62,767 nt of DNA. It comes from Rhodoluna sp. (GTDB lineage Bacteria > Actinomycetota > Actinomycetes > Actinomycetales > Microbacteriaceae). A program made the translations under genes and the position numbers. The DNA lies in NCBI RefSeq assembly GCF_024639375.1, contig NZ_JAHEIM010000012.1, positions 1 through 62,767 on the forward strand, written 5' to 3'. Shown piece by piece: positions 4,743 through 47,227 of the stretch. Positions within the stretch are counted from its first letter, which is position 1; each line of letters opens with the position of its first letter. The notes under the pieces are model-generated. The model worked only from the letters and a program-made list of their open reading frames with translations, searched no databases and was not told the origin of the DNA.

Positions 4743-4815
4743 AGGGTGGTGGCTCAATTGGTAGAGCATCGGTCTCCAAAACCGAGGGTTGCAGGTTCGA
4801 GTCCTGTCCGCCCTG
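4743..4815 (+). tRNA. tRNA-Trp (CCA anticodon)
   Basis: The acceptor AGGGTGG (4743-4749) pairs with CCGCCCT (4808-4814), with G as the discriminator. The anticodon loop CTCCAAA gives CCA, and the T arm is GCAGG-TTCGAGT-CCTGT. A single tRNA-Trp just before secE is a conserved actinobacterial arrangement. Confidence 0.96.
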
Positions 4816-16211: not shown

Positions 16212-16868
16212 ATGTATGCACGCCAAGTGCTTGTTGTAGAAGACGAGTCATTGCTGCGCGACTTGATTGCAAAGATGCTCGAGTCAGCCGGCTTTCAAGT
16301 GACCACCGCAGCAAACGCAGCAGATGCGAAGCGAGCCTTTGAAGCGGTTGACCCAGACGCGGCCGTGATCGATGTTGAACTCGGCGCTGGCCCAAATGGT
16401 TTTGACTTCGCAGCCGCAGTGCACGAAGTGGCCCCGGATGTTGGCCTCGTGTTCCTCACCAATTTGCCGGACCCTCGTTTTGTTGGCCGACACTCAGACG
16501 ACCTGCCAAAGCACGTTGCTTATTTGCGCAAGTCGAAGTTGGTTGACGCCAAAGATTTGGTGAACGCAATCGAGGCAGTGCTGCGCGATTCTGTCACCAA
16601 AGAATTCCGCCACGATCAAGACCCAAACCGCCCACTTGCCGAATTGTCGCGCAAACAAATCGCGGTGTTGCAACTATTGGCGGCCGGTTATTCAAACTCG
16701 CAGATTGCCGAGAAGCGTTCAACCACCGTGCGTGCGGTTGAGGGCATTGTGAGCCGCACTTTTGCCGCGTTGGATGTTGACCCGCAGGCAGCCGGCAATG
16801 CACGCGTTGAAGCGGCATCAAAGTTCTTGCAGGCTTCGGGCAAGGCCATGCAGCTCGCTGATGACTAA
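16212..16868 (+). CDS. Response regulator with LuxR-type DNA-binding domain
   Basis: A 218-residue two-domain regulator. The receiver domain has the acidic pair E10/D11 in VVEDES, the phospho-accepting D54 in AAVIDVELGAG and the conserved Lys in AYLRKSK. The C-terminal HTH (LSRKQIAVLQLLAAGYSNSQIAEK, then TVRAVEGIVSR) is of the NarL/FixJ type. Phosphorylation by the sensor kinase encoded next is expected to control DNA binding. ATG 16212 follows GGGGATAAAA. The stop overlaps the kinase start by 8 bp, so the pair is translationally coupled. Confidence 0.93.
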   Translation: MYARQVLVVEDESLLRDLIAKMLESAGFQVTTAANAADAKRAFEAVDPDAAVIDVELGAGPNGFDFAAAVHEVAPDVGLVFLTNLPDPRFVGRHSDDLPKHVAYLRKSKLVDAKDLVNAIEAVLRDSVTKEFRHDQDPNRPLAELSRKQIAVLQLLAAGYSNSQIAEKRSTTVRAVEGIVSRTFAALDVDPQAAGNARVEAASKFLQASGKAMQLADD

Positions 16869-18606
16869 ACGGGCGATTACTCCGCGCACCAGTCTCTCAG
16901 CGGCAATCGATAATGCCGCCGGGCCGATTGCGGTTAGCAATCGCGTTCTAATTCAGTTTGCTTTTCCTTCGATCACCGGTTTGATTGCGCTCAATCTGAA
17001 TCGCTTCATTCAAAACCCAACCGCCTGGTTTGCAATTTCGCTTTCGGCCTACATAGCCACGGTGATTCCACTTCTGATTTTTAGATCAACAATCGCACCA
17101 ACCCAAAATCGCACAAGAATGCGCTTGCGCACATCAATTGCGTTTCTTATCGCGGGTCTAATTCGCGGCTTTGTTGTTTTCGTGGTTGGAACCCAACTTG
17201 GTGTGATTCCCGCAGAGGAGCTTCTGCTTCGACTTCTAAATGCACCCCTGTTTGTTTATGGGGCCGTGGCCACCTTTGCTATCTTCAACGCATCGCGATT
17301 GCGACACCTTGACACGCTTCAAAAGCTTGAAATTGAGAAAGCTACTTTGGATGAGTTGCGTGGCGGAATTCGCGAGCGCATCAAAATGCAAAAGCTTGAG
17401 CTGCTTCAGCGAATTCAAACCGTATTGAAGCCAGCCATTGAAGATGTGTCGAAGCAAATCAGCAAGAAGTCGAAGGGCGTGGATGTTTCTTCGAAGTTGC
17501 AAAATATTGTTGAAACCGTGGTGCGCCCACTCAGCCACGATGTTGGTTTGACTGATGAATTTGAAGCTGAAGTAAAGGTCGCGGCAAAGCGCGCGGTTGG
17601 TGCCGGCTTCAAGCAGAACTGGCCTGGCAGCCTCTCGGTTGGTCAAATGATTGTGGCGCCCTACATCACCTTTGCAACCGCATCGGTAGCGCTTGGCTTT
17701 CTCGCGGTGATGGCGCCTAACCACATTGCATTAGCTGGCTTTATTTCTCTTGCAGTGGTCTACCTAGGATTTGAGGCGATCAGCCGATTGCTGGTTCGCG
17801 TGTGGCTGCCCGCCTTTTTCGCATTCATCACTGCCACCATTGCTGCAACGATTCCGCCCGTTATTGCGGTGAACCTGATGTCGTTTGCGCTCACCCCGGT
17901 GCCATTTGGCGGGTCCATCCAATTTGTAATGTTTAGTTGGATCATTACCTGGATTTCTTTTTACATGCAGTTCTTGCGCACGCAACGTGCAGCCGCCGAA
18001 GCCGAGATGACTTCGGCTATTGCTGAGTTGGCAATTCTCAACTCTCAGTTGCGACAAGCTGCTTGGATGAATCGACGCAAGTTGGCGGCTATTTTGCACG
18101 GTTCTGTTCAGTCGGCGCTTTATGCCGCCGCCATTAAGTTGGCCAAGGCCGACAAGCCAACTAAGAAAGAAATCAAGGCCATTCAAGAAGATATCTCGGC
18201 TTCAGTTAGAAAGCTAGAACAGGCCGATGGTGGCGAATCGCTATCCGAGGTAATTGAACAAATTCAACAGGTGTGGGCAGGTGCCGTAAACATCACTGTG
18301 TCGCCAATTAGCAACGAATTGAAAATTACCTTTGAAAAGCACCCAATTGCGGCGTCTTGTGTAGCCGAAGTAATTCGCGAAGCGGTGAGTAATTCCGCCA
18401 AGCACGGCAAGGCCAACAACATTCAGATCTCGGTGCGCGAGAACGAAGCAGGGCTAATTGCAGTTGAAGTTTCGAACGATGGCAAGCCGGTAGCCGTGGA
18501 CTGCAAGCCTGGCTACGGTAGCTCGATTTTTGATGAGGTTGCGTTTAGCTGGTCGTTGAAAACTCAAGGGCCACTGACTGTGTTGGTCGCTTCAATCGCA
18601 ATCTAA
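16861..18606 (+). CDS. Membrane sensor histidine kinase, partner of the preceding regulator
   Basis: A 581-residue protein from ATG 16861 (the in-frame ORF continues back to 16762 inside the regulator; rejected because the ATG gives a tidy 8-bp overlap). Hydrophobic segments occur in two groups: about residues 27-118 (with a further span around 123-142) and about 265-375. They are separated by about 120 residues of charged helix. The phospho-acceptor-like His is in AAILHGSVQSAL. The ATPase N box reads VIREAVSNSAKHGKA and the G box GYGSSIFDE is short and divergent. The two membrane groups with a helical domain between them are unusual. The signal is unknown. Confidence 0.82.
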   Translation: MTKRAITPRTSLSAAIDNAAGPIAVSNRVLIQFAFPSITGLIALNLNRFIQNPTAWFAISLSAYIATVIPLLIFRSTIAPTQNRTRMRLRTSIAFLIAGLIRGFVVFVVGTQLGVIPAEELLLRLLNAPLFVYGAVATFAIFNASRLRHLDTLQKLEIEKATLDELRGGIRERIKMQKLELLQRIQTVLKPAIEDVSKQISKKSKGVDVSSKLQNIVETVVRPLSHDVGLTDEFEAEVKVAAKRAVGAGFKQNWPGSLSVGQMIVAPYITFATASVALGFLAVMAPNHIALAGFISLAVVYLGFEAISRLLVRVWLPAFFAFITATIAATIPPVIAVNLMSFALTPVPFGGSIQFVMFSWIITWISFYMQFLRTQRAAAEAEMTSAIAELAILNSQLRQAAWMNRRKLAAILHGSVQSALYAAAIKLAKADKPTKKEIKAIQEDISASVRKLEQADGGESLSEVIEQIQQVWAGAVNITVSPISNELKITFEKHPIAASCVAEVIREAVSNSAKHGKANNIQISVRENEAGLIAVEVSNDGKPVAVDCKPGYGSSIFDEVAFSWSLKTQGPLTVLVASIAI

Positions 18607-18638
18607 AAAATTGTCTAGCCAAAACGGCGAACTTCGGA

Positions 18639-18644
18639 TAACCT
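18639..18644 (+). promoter_or_regulatory. Candidate -10 element (TAACCT) for DEAD-box helicase gene
   Basis: This is the only TAnnnT hexamer of the local type upstream of the structured leader. It predicts a start near 18651 and a leader of about 130 nt. No convincing -35 box is seen. Confidence 0.35.
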
Positions 18645-18680
18645 TAGAAAGTTACGAAATCGTGACAGTAGTCGTTTGCG

Positions 18681-18780
18681 GATTTTCCTCCAAATAAGTG
18701 GGTCTAGCGCTGTTCGACTAGCCAGCGCTCATCAGCTACTCCCTGCTGAGCCCCACTCATAACTGAATTAAAGGAAAATC
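18681..18780 (+). promoter_or_regulatory. Structured 5' leader of DEAD-box helicase (three-way junction, buried ribosome site)
   Basis: GATTTTCCT (18681-18689) is perfectly complementary to AGGAAAATC (18772-18780), which contains the ribosome-binding site. Inside this 9-bp helix, GTGGG/CCCAC (18698-18702 with 18752-18756) closes a three-way junction. Its arms are AGCGCTG/CAGCGCT (18706-18712 with 18723-18729) and TCAGC/GCTGA (18732-18736 with 18745-18749). All stems are perfect Watson-Crick. I infer a translational on/off switch, possibly temperature-dependent or opened by the helicase itself. Confidence 0.6.
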
Positions 18781-18783
18781 ATC

Positions 18784-21087
18784 ATGCCAAATTTTGGTCA
18801 ATCAAACGCGCGCTCGTCAAAGGGCGCTCCTAAATCAGCAGGTAAGGGCCGTGCTCCAGCAGCCGGCAAAGGTCGCCCAGCGACCGGCAAAGCTGCAGGC
18901 TCAAACTTCAAAACTCGTGAAGATGGGAAAAGTCGCGACAGCGATTTTTCTAGAGGCGGCGCAGCTCGATCTTCCGGCCGCGCGCCTCAGCGCAGCTTCA
19001 GCGATGCACCTAGCCGTGCTCCACGCGAGCGTGGCGCATTCTTCGAAGATCGCCCAAAGCGCACCTACGGTGCAACCGAATCTTCAAGTCGCGACGCTAA
19101 CCTAGGCCGACCAAACCGCGAAGGTGGTCGTGACTGGTATCCAAAGACTGGCGATGCACGTTCAACCGAGCGCAAGCCTCGCTACAACTCAGACGACCGC
19201 GCTGCTCGCGATTCACGCCCTTCATATGGTGACCGTGATTCACGTCCGGCACGCGACTCACGCCCGTCTTATGGTGACCGTGATTCACGTCCAGCTCGTG
19301 ACTCACGTCCAAGCTACGGCGACCGCGATGCACGCCCAGCTTATGGTCGTGGCGACTCACGCCCAGCACGAGATGACCGTCCGTCATACGGCGATCGCCC
19401 AGCACGTGACGACCGCCCACGTCGTGACTCAGACCGCGCACCTCGCACATTCGGCGGTGGCTTCGGCGACCGCAACCGTGCGGAGCGCCCAAGCTATGGT
19501 CGCGATGACAAGACTCGTTTCGAAGAGCGCACTGCAAAGCGTGGTTGGTCTGAAGACCGTGGCCGCGAAGAGCGCAACCCAAACCGTCCAGACCGCGCAG
19601 CACGCGATGACTCACGCGAGTCAACCTTTCGTGGTGCACGTGACTCGAACCCAAACAAGAAGGCTTTCTTCGAAGACAAGGTTCTTGAGCGTCTAGACGT
19701 TGAGCAGTCAGAGGTAATCACCGAAGACTCATTCGAGACCATGGGTCTGCACCCGAAGGTTCTTATTGCACTTACCGGAATGGGCGCAGAGACTCCGTTC
19801 CCAATTCAGGCAAGCACAATTCCTGCAGCTATCTCTGGCCGCGATGTTCTTGGCCGTGGCAAGACCGGTTCGGGCAAGACCATTGCCTTCACCGTTCCTC
19901 TTGTTACCAAGTTGATCGCTGCTGGTTCAGTGCCTCGCAAGCCGGGCAAGCCACGCGCGCTGATTCTTGCGCCAACCCGTGAACTTGCAGACCAGATTGA
20001 CCGCACTGTAAACGGCATTGCCCGTGCGGTTGGTTTCTACACAACTTGTATCTACGGTGGTGTTCCTCAGCGCAAGCAAGAAAACGCAATGAGCCGTGGC
20101 GTAGACATCGTGGTGGCAACACCTGGTCGTCTAGAAGACCTAATGTCTCAGCGCATCATCGACCTAAGCGAAGTTGAAACTTTGGTTGTTGACGAAGCTG
20201 ACCACATGTGTGACCTTGGCTTCATCGAAGGCGTGCGCCGCATCATGCGCGCAGCCGGCGACAGCCAGAAGCTTTTGTTCTCGGCAACACTTGACCGCGA
20301 GGTTGACGCGTTGGTTAAGGAATTCCTTCCGGACCCTTACGTATACGAAGTGCCAAACGAAGAGAACGACACCGCAAACATCACTCACCGAGTTTTGACG
20401 GTGGACCAAGAAGACCGTTCGGCTGTATTGCTTCGCCTGGTTCAGGGTGAAGGCAAGTCGATCATCTTTACTCGCACCAAGATGACCGCTGAGCGTCTAA
20501 GCGAGAGCTTGACGCAGGCTGGCGTGCCAGCGGCTCGTTTGCACGGTGACCTAAACCAGAACCAGCGCAACCGAAACCTAGAGCGTTTCACTAAGGGTGC
20601 CTGCCGCGTTTTGGTGGCTACGGATGTTGCCGCCCGCGGTATTCACGTTGATGATGTTGCCTTGGTTATCCAGGTAGATCCACCAGAGGAATACAAGACT
20701 TACTTGCACCGCTCAGGCCGCACCGGCCGTGCTGGCAAGGAGGGAACAGTGATTACTCTGATTCCTCGCAACCGTCGTCGTCGCATGGAAGACCTATTGG
20801 GTCGTGCCGAGCGCGATGGCTTGTTTAGCGAAGTTCGCCCAAGCTCTGAATTGCTAGTTGACCTAGCCGGCCCTATTGCTGCTGCACCAGCGCCAGAAGT
20901 TCTTGACTTCGGTGACTCACGCGGTGGCTCAGGTGGCGGTGGCCGTGGTCGTGGTGACCGTGATGGTCGTGGCGGCGGTGGCCGTGGTGGTTCACGCGGT
21001 GGCAACTACGGTGGCTCAGGCAAGGGGCGTTGGTCAGACAAGCCGTCTGGCGACAAGCGCCCACGCGCGCGCAAATTCGAAGGCTAA
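18784..21087 (+). CDS. DEAD-box ATP-dependent RNA helicase with long disordered arms
   Basis: A 767-residue helicase. Residues 1 to about 300 are low-complexity Arg/Asp/Ser/Gly, including tandem 15-residue units built on SRPSYGDRD and SRPARD (about 141-210). The core has a Q motif (FETMG...FPIQ), motif I GKTGSGKT (about 357-364), DEAD (470-473), SAT (500-502), and HRSGRTGRAG. The tail from about 713 is RGG-rich. It remodels structured RNA, in ribosome assembly or mRNA decay, typically at low temperature. ATG 18784 has AAAGGAAAA 8 nt upstream, buried in the leader fold. The RG-rich arms are the kind that drive RNA condensates. Confidence 0.93.
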   Translation: MPNFGQSNARSSKGAPKSAGKGRAPAAGKGRPATGKAAGSNFKTREDGKSRDSDFSRGGAARSSGRAPQRSFSDAPSRAPRERGAFFEDRPKRTYGATESSSRDANLGRPNREGGRDWYPKTGDARSTERKPRYNSDDRAARDSRPSYGDRDSRPARDSRPSYGDRDSRPARDSRPSYGDRDARPAYGRGDSRPARDDRPSYGDRPARDDRPRRDSDRAPRTFGGGFGDRNRAERPSYGRDDKTRFEERTAKRGWSEDRGREERNPNRPDRAARDDSRESTFRGARDSNPNKKAFFEDKVLERLDVEQSEVITEDSFETMGLHPKVLIALTGMGAETPFPIQASTIPAAISGRDVLGRGKTGSGKTIAFTVPLVTKLIAAGSVPRKPGKPRALILAPTRELADQIDRTVNGIARAVGFYTTCIYGGVPQRKQENAMSRGVDIVVATPGRLEDLMSQRIIDLSEVETLVVDEADHMCDLGFIEGVRRIMRAAGDSQKLLFSATLDREVDALVKEFLPDPYVYEVPNEENDTANITHRVLTVDQEDRSAVLLRLVQGEGKSIIFTRTKMTAERLSESLTQAGVPAARLHGDLNQNQRNRNLERFTKGACRVLVATDVAARGIHVDDVALVIQVDPPEEYKTYLHRSGRTGRAGKEGTVITLIPRNRRRRMEDLLGRAERDGLFSEVRPSSELLVDLAGPIAAAPAPEVLDFGDSRGGSGGGGRGRGDRDGRGGGGRGGSRGGNYGGSGKGRWSDKPSGDKRPRARKFEG
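19204..19413 (+). repeat. Tandem 45-bp coding repeats in helicase N-terminus
   Basis: Three near-identical 45-bp units encode the 15-residue period SRPSYGDRDSRPARD, followed by degenerating copies (AYGRGDSRPARDDRPSYGDRPARDD). Synonymous differences between units (CGT/CGC, TCA) show they are not brand new. Confidence 0.85.
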
Positions 21088-21159: not shown

Positions 21160-22623
21160 TTGGCTGTCATAAATGACGTGCGTGCGCGCACGACCCTAGC
21201 CAAGCTCACCTATGGCTATAACCCAACCGATGTTGCCACTATTAAGGCGATCGGTTTGGAGGAATGGCTCAAAGATCAACTGACCCCGACCAAGGTTGAA
21301 ACCAGCGAATACTTGCAAGACATTTCAATGTTTCGTTCGCAAACAATGTCACTTCCGCAGATCTATCAAGATCGACTTTTCAAGGGCAAGCCAAGCCTGC
21401 TTTCAAATGAACTTGCGCACCTAACTCTGATTCGTCGCATCTATTCTTCGCGTCAAGTTTTTGAAATGTTGGTCGAGCTTTTCAGCGACTACGTGCCTGT
21501 TCCGCTTTTGGCAAAGAAATCGCTGGTTCGAGTTGATTACGACAACACCGTAATTCGTGCAAACGTGCTCGGATATTTTCCTAACCTTTTGGCCGCGGCC
21601 ACTTACCACCCGGCCATGCTTGATTACCTAAACGGCGACACCAACACCGCGCAGCATCCGAATGAAAATTATGGTCGTGAATTTCTAGAGCTATTCACGC
21701 TAACCCCGGGTGCGGGCTACACCGAAGATGATGTCAAGGGTGCTTCAAAAATGTTCTCGGGTATCTTTTGGGATGTTGCAACTGACACTCACCACGTGCG
21801 ACTAAGCCAGCACTACTTTGGTCAGATTAAAGTTTTTGGCTACACCGATAAAAACAAGGCAACCACGAGCGAAAATGCGGTGAAGTTGCGCATCAAGCGA
21901 TTCATCAAAAACATTGCACTGCGCCCCGAAACTGCAAATGCATTCAGCATTCGCATGGCCCGCAGATTTGTTGCCGATGTGCCACCAAACTCGCTAATCA
22001 AAAAGATGAGCGCCGAATACTTGCGCACCAAAGGGCACATCCCGAGTGTTTTCAAAGTGATGGCACTGAGCACAGAGTTTGCGGCAGCCAAGCCAACCAA
22101 GGTGAAGCGCCCGATGGAACACCTGGCCTCGACCGTGCGTGCTCTAAACGTTTCACTAGCGAACCCGGTGCCACAGCCGAATATAGAAGTGGTCAAGGAT
22201 TACGCCAAGGGTTCACCTATGCCGCCGGTGCTGACTGCACTAACCACTCAGGGGCACGCGCCTTTTGACTGGCCTTTTCCTAATGGCTACCCAGACATCG
22301 GTGAGCCTTGGACCACGCTTTCTAGCCAGGTGCAGCGTTGGAATTTCTCGACCAAGATTGCTCAGGGCAGAATGGCGAATGCTTTTGCCGACCCAAATTA
22401 TGCAACCCTGTTAAGCCCAACCAGCACAACGCCAAATGAAATTGTCACCGACTTGGCAGTGCATCTTTATGGTGCAGATTTACCAACTGCCGAAAAGACC
22501 AAGGTGTTGGCAATCGTAAATCAAAGCGTTCGCAATAACGGCGACCAAGCTAAATACATTTCAAATGTTGCGGCAACCGCAGCGGCACTTTTGCTTTCAA
22601 AACCAGATTGGAATTTGCGATGA
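21160..22623 (+). CDS. DUF1800 family protein
   Basis: A 487-residue protein of the DUF1800 family, recognised from the N-terminal helix with LAKLTYGYNP, the HPAMLDYLNGDTNTA-like segment (residues about 149-163), ENYGREFLELFTLTPGAGYTEDDVKGASKMFSG (about 170-202) and the PPNSLIKKM/FKVMALSTEF region. The function of the family is unknown; it nearly always sits beside a DUF1501 gene, as here. No signal peptide is evident at this start. TTG 21160 has GAGGGG upstream, and its TGA overlaps the DUF1501 ATG (ATGA). The two products are probably made in equal amounts. Confidence 0.88.
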   Translation: MAVINDVRARTTLAKLTYGYNPTDVATIKAIGLEEWLKDQLTPTKVETSEYLQDISMFRSQTMSLPQIYQDRLFKGKPSLLSNELAHLTLIRRIYSSRQVFEMLVELFSDYVPVPLLAKKSLVRVDYDNTVIRANVLGYFPNLLAAATYHPAMLDYLNGDTNTAQHPNENYGREFLELFTLTPGAGYTEDDVKGASKMFSGIFWDVATDTHHVRLSQHYFGQIKVFGYTDKNKATTSENAVKLRIKRFIKNIALRPETANAFSIRMARRFVADVPPNSLIKKMSAEYLRTKGHIPSVFKVMALSTEFAAAKPTKVKRPMEHLASTVRALNVSLANPVPQPNIEVVKDYAKGSPMPPVLTALTTQGHAPFDWPFPNGYPDIGEPWTTLSSQVQRWNFSTKIAQGRMANAFADPNYATLLSPTSTTPNEIVTDLAVHLYGADLPTAEKTKVLAIVNQSVRNNGDQAKYISNVAATAAALLLSKPDWNLR

Positions 22624-23891
22624 GTCACGACGAAGCAAATTGCGGTTGCGAAGAATTTCAGGAACTCACTCGCGGGGTTAGTCGTCGTGGATTTCTTGGG
22701 GGAGTGCTTGCACTTGGCGGTGGCTTGGCGATTGCTGTTGAACCAGGCTTCGATTACGCACTTGCAGCGCCCGGTCAAAACGCAGCCGATGTAATCATCA
22801 TGGTTTCAATGCGCGGCGGAATGGATGGCCTGATGGCTGTTCCGGTTTTGGGCGACCCGCTGTTGCAGCAAAGCCGACCGATCACAGCAGTTGCCGACAG
22901 CGAAAATCTAAATCTTGATAACCACTTCGGTTTGCACAAAAATCTTTCGGGTTTCAAAACCATGTTTGACAATCAAGAACTTGCCATCGTTCACGCGGTT
23001 GGCACACCAACTGGCACACGCAGTCACTTTGACGATCAACTTGCCATCGAGCTTGCCGCCTACAACAATCCAGACACCACCACCGGATGGCAGACTCGCT
23101 ATCTGAGCGCCATTGGCAGCACTGAAGTGCTTACCGGTTTCTCGGCATCGCAAAATAAGCCGGCTGCCTTCCGCGGCGCAAACCAGGCTGCATCATTTGA
23201 AGACCTAAGCCAAGTGACCATCACCAGCGTGGGCAACGACCGGGCAAGTTATCTTGAGCTGCTAAAGCAGATGCACAAAAACAGCGATCACCAATGGGCC
23301 AAGGCTGGGCTTTCTTCAATTGACGCGTCTGAAAAACTGCGTTCGGTTTCACAAACCTCGAGCGTCACTTATCCAGACACCGCACTCGGTCGTCGATTCA
23401 AACTTTTGGCAACCCTGCTGCACTCGGGCACACCAATCAAAACCGCAAATATTGATTTTGGTGGTGACCTTGATGTGCACAGCGAGGCTGGCATCGCTTC
23501 GGGCACCATGGCCAACAACTTCAAGAACCTGAATGACTCGGTAATGGCTCTGAAGCAAGACCTTGGCTCGCTGTGGAACTCGGTGACCATCGTGACCGTG
23601 ACCGAGTTTGGCCGTCGCCTGCAAGAAAACGCATCCGCGGGCCTCGACCATGGCTGGGGCTCGGCCATGTTCGTAATGGGTGGCGGAGTAAAGGGTGGAA
23701 AGATCGTGGCCAACTGGCCGGGTCTATCCCCAGAGAATTTGCACAACGGAGACCTGGCCGTGACCCTGGACTACCGCCACGTGATGGCCGATGTGCTGCG
23801 CTATCGAGGCAACCTATCTTCAACCGAGATCAATTCAATTTTCCCTGGGTTCCAATTTCAAGATCTCGGATTGGCCCGCCAGGTCAGTTAG
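22620..23891 (+). CDS. DUF1501 family protein with Tat signal
   Basis: A 423-residue DUF1501 (alkaline-phosphatase-fold-like) protein. The N-terminus has a twin-arginine motif in SRRGFLGG followed by a hydrophobic stretch and an A-x-A-like site near GFDYALAAPG, so it should be exported folded by Tat. Core stretches are SMRGGMDGLMAVPVLGDP, FGLHKNL, AIVHAVGTPTGTRSHFDDQLAIE, and TEFGRRLQENASAGLDHGWG with likely metal-binding Asp/His. The molecular function is not established. ATG 22620 overlapping the DUF1800 stop is preferred over TTG 22608. Confidence 0.88.
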   Translation: MSHDEANCGCEEFQELTRGVSRRGFLGGVLALGGGLAIAVEPGFDYALAAPGQNAADVIIMVSMRGGMDGLMAVPVLGDPLLQQSRPITAVADSENLNLDNHFGLHKNLSGFKTMFDNQELAIVHAVGTPTGTRSHFDDQLAIELAAYNNPDTTTGWQTRYLSAIGSTEVLTGFSASQNKPAAFRGANQAASFEDLSQVTITSVGNDRASYLELLKQMHKNSDHQWAKAGLSSIDASEKLRSVSQTSSVTYPDTALGRRFKLLATLLHSGTPIKTANIDFGGDLDVHSEAGIASGTMANNFKNLNDSVMALKQDLGSLWNSVTIVTVTEFGRRLQENASAGLDHGWGSAMFVMGGGVKGGKIVANWPGLSPENLHNGDLAVTLDYRHVMADVLRYRGNLSSTEINSIFPGFQFQDLGLARQVS

Positions 23892-45321: not shown

Positions 45322-45406
45322 CGGAGAATATGGGATTCGAACCCATGAGGGCTTGCACCCAACCAACTTTCCAAGCTGGCGCCATAGGCCACTAGGCGAA
45401 TTCTCC
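45322..45406 (-). tRNA. tRNA-Ser (GGA anticodon)
   Basis: On the minus strand the acceptor GGAGAAT pairs with ATTCTCC, the anticodon stem CCAGC/GTTGG holds the loop TTGGAAA (anticodon GGA), a long variable arm follows as expected for serine, and the T loop is TTCGAAT. The discriminator is G. Confidence 0.95.
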
Positions 45407-47099: not shown

Positions 47100-47106
47100 T
47101 GTCCAT

Positions 47107-47194
47107 GGCTCCCCGCGTGGCGTCACCTCGGCTAACTCCCCCAGGATCGAAAGATAGCAAGGGTAACTGGGCTCTGATGGGTGCGCGGGGAGTC
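47107..47194 (+). ncRNA. ffs: Signal recognition particle RNA (bacterial small type, 4.5S)
   Basis: The terminal helix CTCCCCGCG (47109-47117) pairs with CGCGGGGAG (47184-47192). The apical region CCCCCAGGATCGAAAGATAGCAAGGGTAACTGGGC carries the conserved SRP54-binding AGCAAGGGTA and tetraloop (shown in part). A T-rich stretch TCTTTCATTTA follows. Its position just before dnaX is typical of actinobacteria. It guides nascent membrane proteins with Ffh. Confidence 0.92.
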
Positions 47195-47227
47195 TTTCAT
47201 TTATCCGGGGCAGTCAGCCCCAAAGGG

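Follow-up and report, generated by a model that had tools for sequence, protein, structure and literature searches.

Cis-regulatory RNAs are known that respond to metabolites, temperature and ribosomal proteins, and cspA-type cold-shock leaders and RNA thermometers are structured, adopt alternative folds and belong to genes of the temperature response. DEAD-box proteins open short RNA helices and relieve kinetic traps. A published abstract is consistent with such an action (PMC7948464). With regard to DEAD-box helicase genes themselves, crhR of Synechocystis is reported to be autoregulated both transcriptionally and post-transcriptionally, including through transcript and protein stability (PMC3485376). 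Here, we analysed a stretch of 62,767 nucleotides from Rhodoluna sp. (Microbacteriaceae; contig NZ_JAHEIM010000012.1), hereafter the window, in which the leader of a DEAD-box RNA helicase gene lies between the end of the upstream open reading frame (ORF; 18606) and the helicase ATG (18784). On the basis of comparative and thermodynamic computation, this leader may well be an RNA switch that acts in cis on helicase translation, a reading to which we give a probability of roughly 0.55.

Conserved helices of the helicase leader

The leader contains a 9-bp closing helix, read directly from the sequence, in which GATTTTCCT (18681-18689) is the perfect complement of AGGAAAATC (18772-18780), as an earlier note on this DNA had claimed. 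The ribosome site AAAGGA (18770-18775), whose end lies 8 nt before the ATG, is mostly inside this helix, and the stems that the helix encloses (P4, P5 and P6) form a three-way junction. Junction and buried ribosome site, both described in the note, were recovered in the predicted fold. Two inner stems, of 7 and 5 bp, were as described; the stem given as another 5 bp has 6 bp (P4). The structure had been called unlikely by chance, and this is what the comparison with shuffled sequences indicates: the minimum free energy (MFE) of positions 18676-18786 (111 nt) is -32.2 kcal/mol (z -3.15; 0/200 dinucleotide shuffles as good), and that of positions 18639-18800 (162 nt) is -42.3 kcal/mol (z -2.22; 4/200 shuffles as good). 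The 5′ hairpin (P1) and a long-range helix formed by UAGUCG and CGACUA (Table 1) were absent from the note. In the window, the 3′ strand of the long-range helix is contained in the loop of P5, whose closing stem varies between clades, and the GC of the conserved UUUGC stands opposite a conserved GC preceding this 3′ strand.

The genus set comprised 67 Rhodoluna genomes, in 66 of which a search for the helicase core gave some match. A DNA search with the leader only, which is independent of any model, matched 29 of the 67, including the window's own genome, mostly as two conserved blocks with variable sequence between them. To collect leaders, we searched for AGTAGTCGTTTGC with up to two changes and kept the leaders whose downstream start was MP or MA. 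The 43 distinct rows (three accepted by hand), together with L025 and L026, added by hand, constitute alignment A1 (45 rows). Alignment A2 (38 rows) excludes L017, L062, L069 and L070, which have divergent 3′ halves, and the near copies L003, L009 and L044. The layout in relatives runs from a -10-like TANNNT (seen by eye in most) through the 5′ hairpin, UAGUCG-UUUGC, a variable hairpin P2 and CAGUC to a run of pyrimidines that complements the ribosome site, P3, GUGUGUGGGU and the loop NGUUCGACUA, and ends with P6 and its invariant UACUCC, the 3′ strand of P4 and the ribosome site. P2 and P3, which most relatives have, are both missing from the window and L016, so that the earlier note described the 3′ half of a reduced member. 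The most invariant columns surround the long-range helix and the UACUCC loop. No partner was found for UACUCC (18737-18742, in the P6 loop), which is invariant across the 38 A2 leaders; pairing with AGUAG near the 5′ end was rejected, as several leaders have no AGUAG.

The covariance model R1, built without the long-range helix, gave 47 matches in 45 of the 67 genus genomes, among them 20 of the 22 of good quality; most matched leaders, that of the window included, were training rows. Of the 47 copies, 45 are followed by the start of the same type of helicase, and the contigs of the other two (L048 and L049) end before it. No match was obtained in two good-quality genomes, G041 and G054. The leader of G041 (L080, ~1040 to 925, minus strand) is reduced: it keeps a 5′ hairpin and GUAGUCGUUUGC; judging from its sequence, a later UGGCUA could pair with GUAGUCGUUUGC using two G-U pairs, and the rest is lost. 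G054 has no close helicase match. G029 carries the helicase in two copies, each with its own leader (L029 and L062), one of which is shortened. Across 249 genomes of the family, searched with the stricter filters used for large sets, R1 matches only the five that belong to this genus. An exact pattern occurred in 21 stretches of the genome collection, 19 of them on contigs titled Rhodoluna, Microbacteriaceae, Micrococcales, Actinomycetales, Actinomycetota and, once, Auritidibacter; the other two (Halomicrococcus and Pseudomonas) were taken as chance.

Covariation was assessed in A2 over seven helix segments with 38 pairs; P5 and the closing helix are outside this count, and four of the segments (P1, the long-range helix, P4 and P6) exist in the window. 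The proportion of paired cells was 95.8% versus 85.5% after shuffling, two-sided changes occurred at 22/38 pairs versus 13.8, and the covariation score was 0.320 versus 0.143. On each of five measures, 0/500 shuffles were as high; with partners shifted by 1 to 3 columns, at most 48.3% of cells were paired. P1, which is diverse in sequence, has 96.9% of its cells paired and two-sided changes at five of six pairs, and P6 has 95.3% with two-sided changes at all four modelled pairs. By parsimony on the helicase-core tree, for the 32 leaders common to the tree and A2, pair types changed 23 times in P1, 24 times in P2, 21 times in P6 and 7 times in P4. The covariation check that the earlier note had proposed thus left its reading standing for the modelled helices; the 7-bp P5 of the window is outside the model, and the closing pairs depend on the clade.

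The long-range helix is paired in all 45 A1 leaders, and in all 47 when L020 and the second G064 copy are included, with two-sided changes at three of its six pairs. C-G becomes U-A in L030, L052 and L063, U-A becomes A-U in L025, L026, L059 and L068, and G-C becomes G-U in L013 and L014. L020, which lies outside the pattern, has UUAGUUA with UGACUAA, fully paired, so that one pair passes through a G-C, G-U, A-U series across L013/L014 and L020. By eye, the local P5 pairing is lost but the long-range pairing retained in some rows, such as L025 and L018.

The leader is thus conserved and covarying, and it has no Rfam match, in keeping with the suggestion that it is a possibly undescribed RNA family. 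In the Rfam 15 search, a further check proposed in the note, neither the window nor 19 related loci reached a gathering threshold (4227 families), and under permissive settings none of 15 loci showed a match within its leader. We recognised no published description of the leader in literature searches, the coverage of which excluded most subscription journals, and neither helicase nor DEAD is mentioned in the main text of two RNA-motif papers.

Predicted early and late folds

Folding of the growing transcript was treated as an equilibrium computation, with neither pseudoknots nor kinetics. For nascent RNA that stops at CGACUA, the long-range helix has a mean probability of 0.94 and reaches at least 0.5 in 40/40 leaders. 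About 14 bases later, the mean is 0.50 (at least 0.5 in 21/40), and in the full-length leader it is 0.00 (0/40); for the window, the probability already falls from 0.96 to 0.06 over the first of these intervals, about 14 bases. In controls that kept both 6-mers with the rest shuffled, the early probability reached 0.5 in 86/320, and early formation with late loss was seen in 60/320. As early and late folds exchange in every leader versus 60 of the 320 controls, we read the leader as a probable sequential-folding switch. Forcing the long-range helix as a nested element places the fold 5.3 to 19.3 kcal/mol above the MFE (mean 10.3; 20 °C, 40 leaders). In the forced fold, GGA accessibility ranges from 0.09 to 0.99 and is above that of the free fold in 39/40 leaders.

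With regard to the ribosome site, its four bases in the window are unpaired in the model with a probability of at most 0.008 from 5 to 45 °C. Across leaders at 20 °C, GGA is unpaired with a mean probability of 0.07, versus 0.28 with shuffled upstream sequence, and the value is lower in 34/40. When the pyrimidine run is paired with the 30 nt preceding the ATG, the best helix scores 16.8 on average in 43 leaders, although a misplaced partner window for L062 and L068 lowered this mean. When partners were permuted among rows, the mean was 15.3 (standard deviation 0.3, highest 16.5) and 0/5000 permutations reached 16.8; when the pyrimidine run was shuffled, it was 12.2. The earlier note had proposed a translational switch with one lid. 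The predicted burial agrees with the translational part of this proposal, and alternative folds are favoured over a single lid because the 5′ hairpin and the competing long-range helix are the most conserved elements.

Table 1 Features of the helicase leader and gene in the window.
Feature	Position	Strand	Basis
-10-like element TAACCT, likely promoter (start site inferred)	18639..18644	+	Sequence; just 5′ of the hairpin in relatives
P1, 5′ hairpin, 6 bp (18651-18656 with 18661-18666), predicted RNA 5′ end	18651..18666	+	Covariation
Long-range helix, 5′ strand UAGUCG	18669..18674	+	Pairs in 45/45 A1 leaders, plus L020 and second G064 copy
UUUGC after the long-range 5′ strand	18675..18679	+	Invariant or nearly invariant columns
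Anti-ribosome-site strand of the 9-bp closing helix	18681..18689	+	Sequence; beats permuted partners in 43 leaders
P4, 5′ strand AGTGGG (6 bp with CCCACT 18752-18757)	18697..18702	+	Sequence; P4 cells 90.5% paired in A2
P5 hairpin, 7 bp (AGCGCTG 18706-18712 with CAGCGCT 18723-18729)	18706..18729	+	MFE
Long-range helix, 3′ strand CGACUA	18715..18720	+	Pairing in relatives
P6 hairpin, 5 bp (TCAGC 18732-18736 with GCTGA 18745-18749), around UACUCC	18732..18749	+	Covariation
P4, 3′ strand CCCACT	18752..18757	+	Sequence, covariation
Ribosome-site strand AGGAAAATC of the closing helix	18772..18780	+	Sequence, permutation, folding
DEAD-box RNA helicase, 767 aa, basic N-terminal extension, Gly-rich tail	18784..21087	+	Pfam

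Proposed switch and its alternatives

We propose that, during transcription, a 5′ domain would arise first, built from the 5′ hairpin and, after it, the long-range helix, and that the ribosome site that follows would then be more accessible (open state). With the 3′ half completed, the region would refold into the P4/P5/P6 junction and the anti-ribosome-site helix (closed state), which is the more stable state in the model. The two folds would exclude each other, the early one would be metastable in the cell, and the rate of passage from the early to the closed fold would set helicase output. A two-fold switch of this kind, with its effector unnamed, is in our judgement probable. The most likely accelerator would be the helicase itself, since opening short helices and relieving kinetic traps is what DEAD-box proteins do; abundant helicase would close its own message, whereas in the cold or under helicase shortage the early fold would linger and more helicase would be made. 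That helicase excess shuts off its own synthesis by opening the 6-bp metastable helix is a tentative step, which we rate well short of an even chance. The earlier note had suggested opening by temperature or by the helicase. We favour the reverse of the latter, in which the helicase would help the leader to reach the closed fold; opening by temperature is not supported, since in the model the ribosome site remains paired throughout the range of 5 to 45 °C.

The helicase matches Pfam DEAD (1e-43) and Helicase_C (3e-32), and its best NCBIfam match is CshA, at 320 bits under the cut-off of 646. DbpA-type helicases recognise 23S hairpin 92 via a C-terminal RNA-binding domain. No such domain follows the core, where Pfam at E 0.001 gives only DEAD, Helicase_C and ResIII. 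The window loop GCUGUUCG resembles hairpin 92; a mimic of this hairpin was dropped as a candidate because relatives have GCAGUUCG, GCUUUCAA or GCGAUUGA in the loop and the protein has no DbpA domain.

Several observations weigh against the switch. As regards covariation, P4 has two-sided changes at one pair, three of the six long-range pairs never vary, and the five modelled long-range pairs show only 2 pair-type changes on the helicase-core tree; on a tree of the 38 leaders, without L020, there is one change each at three long-range pairs. The 3′ half of L017, L069 and L070 is unrelated. Some clades have a weak anti-ribosome-site helix, with 5 bp in L029, L064 and L067, and the position after CCT is mismatched in 8/45 leaders, the window included (C-G 19, U-A 16, U-G 2, C-A 3, A-A 5). 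The excess of this helix over permuted partners is uncorrected for relatedness, and for the ribosome-site flank a test on the tree could draw on just 2 independent pairs at supported branches, too few to reach significance. GGA burial is no greater than in shuffles in 6/40 leaders, and GGA accessibility in the forced early fold falls to 0.09 in one leader. In the model, the early helix yields some 14 bases on in about half of the leaders, the window among them, which is well ahead of transcription of the ribosome site. As the folding model is nested only, the closed fold and the long-range helix could be present together; in the window, this would amount to a pseudoknot between a loop and the 5′ strand. 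Finally, the tie between helicase and leader is one of association only, namely the position of 45/47 copies before the same helicase type.

Such a coexistence is the core of the most serious alternative: one three-dimensional fold and no switch, in which the long-range helix is a pseudoknot standing together with the junction and the closing helix, and the whole serves as a binding site, perhaps for the RG-rich extension of the helicase or for a ribosomal protein, that stabilises repression. Much of CGACUA is in an open loop in the window and in several clades, and is free there for UAGUCG, and the invariant columns around the long-range helix and the UACUCC loop would be expected of such a site. 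However, CGACUA is partly paired locally in the MFE fold of many relatives, and nested folding gives the early/late exchange in 40/40, so that we consider a single fold rather unlikely. A small-molecule riboswitch, with the 5′ domain (P1, the long-range helix, P2 and P3) as its aptamer, would have the complex fold, the conserved internal loop and loops, and the competing fold over the ribosome site that are seen here; nevertheless, we find it improbable, as the window and L016 lack P2 and P3 entirely, G041 retains little beyond P1 and the long-range strands, and all 45 copies with a visible coding sequence precede a helicase start and never a metabolic gene.

The leader structure could also serve mainly mRNA stability or RNase processing, without a regulated switch. 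A 5′ terminal hairpin that is conserved in pairing and diverse in sequence is, in general knowledge, a 5′-end protector, but both the conservation of a long-range helix alternating with the closed fold and the match of the anti-ribosome-site strand to its own ribosome-site region would be left unexplained, which makes this account improbable as well. An RNA thermometer opened by warming is very improbable. It would agree with a ribosome site that is paired in the model and with a gene class linked to temperature response, as for crhR (PMC3485376); however, even at 45 °C the predicted probability that the site of the window is unpaired does not exceed 0.008, which speaks in silico against the melting type, and a cold-shock gene would require the opposite sign. 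Terminator-based attenuation was also rejected, since a simple scan found 0 terminator-like sites in 18500-18900. The sequential-folding switch is the reading that we retain.

A second leader RNA, neighbouring genes and known systems

In other genera of the Microbacteriaceae, the leaders of the orthologous helicase contain a different conserved RNA, GGUCGGCUCU...GUAAGUCNGGUGGGCCGGUUU...CGGYCCCGGCC...GCCCGGGU (model R2), which is likewise unlisted. R2 (loci L087-L105 and L136-L165, e.g. L096:3702-3830, minus strand) matches 181/249 family genomes and 67/85 genera, and none of the five Rhodoluna-type genomes. Of 297 genomes in an order-wide sample, 22 match: 20 belong to the family, and the other two are marginal (E 0.004 and 0.008). 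It lies upstream of the helicase in 27 of the 30 loci checked for a downstream core; two of the others are shortened, and one has no such core in reach. In an alignment fitted to the model, 97.0% of R2 cells are paired versus 91.4% after shuffling and two-sided changes occur at 10/23 pairs (0/500 shuffles each), with further pair types as high in 3/500. The 5′ helix (three pairs measured) has a probability of at least 0.7 early and below 0.15 at full length in 11/15 leaders, a count made without a shuffled control. Complementarity of GCCCGGGU to the ribosome-site region scores 16.7 in 15 leaders versus 15.1 with permuted partners (standard deviation 0.5, highest permutation 17.0). A set of 26 rows with automatic starts, wrong in most, showed no excess (13.8 versus 13.9 permuted) and was set aside. 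GGA accessibility is 0.05 to 0.69 in the 14 computable leaders, and predicted burial is weaker than for R1.

R2 resembles R1 in its position before the orthologous helicase, in an early 5′ helix that is lost at full length and in its complementarity to the ribosome site. In contrast, no shared sequence was detected: R1 had no match to R2 leaders, R2 had none to the window or the Rhodoluna leaders tried, and a common origin is unsupported by these cross-searches. It is possible, though we regard it as speculative, that the leader is a gauge of RNA-unwinding capacity, in which the rate at which the helicase resolves a trapped early fold would set the helicase level, and that this design was reached at least two times with unrelated RNAs, R1 in Rhodoluna and R2 in most other Microbacteriaceae genera sampled. 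Genus g13 (L083-L086) has a short leader, in the 60-70 nt that precede the helicase start, with a CCUUAGGC...CCUAAGG-type hairpin; by eye, the ribosome site is in or beside the hairpin at the four loci inspected.

Directly 5′ of the helicase in the window (16212-18606) are a response regulator and, overlapping it, an ORF that matches HATPase_c weakly, below the cut-off; in G041 and g13 the upstream gene instead resembles, by eye, a small glutaredoxin-type ORF. Downstream (21160-23891) are a DUF1800 protein (E 1.3e-88) and another ORF, which may be its usual DUF1501 partner. Elsewhere in the window are a Bacterial small SRP RNA (47104-47200) and four tRNA genes (1139-1210, 1259-1332, 4743-4815 and 45322-45406).

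The retention of a leader of about 130 to 220 nt in genomes of 0.8 to 1.6 Mb is notable in itself, and two unlisted RNA families at one orthologous helicase in one family offer a comparative system for RNA chaperone balance. The Rfam families of cspA-type leaders and thermometers differ from the Rhodoluna leader, which matches none of the 4227 families, Actino-pnp (RF01688) included. Control of pnp and of rne is by RNA degradation, whereas no cleavage is indicated in the Rhodoluna leader and the proposed act is a refolding. Nevertheless, in these systems too an RNA-processing enzyme acts on its own leader (for rne, PMC10989929), as the helicase is proposed to do. crhR is reported to be a DEAD-box helicase gene that autoregulates in connection with temperature, although its host belongs to another phylum (PMC3485376). 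If the proposal is true, a leader that senses RNA-unwinding activity would represent a new input for cis-regulatory RNAs.

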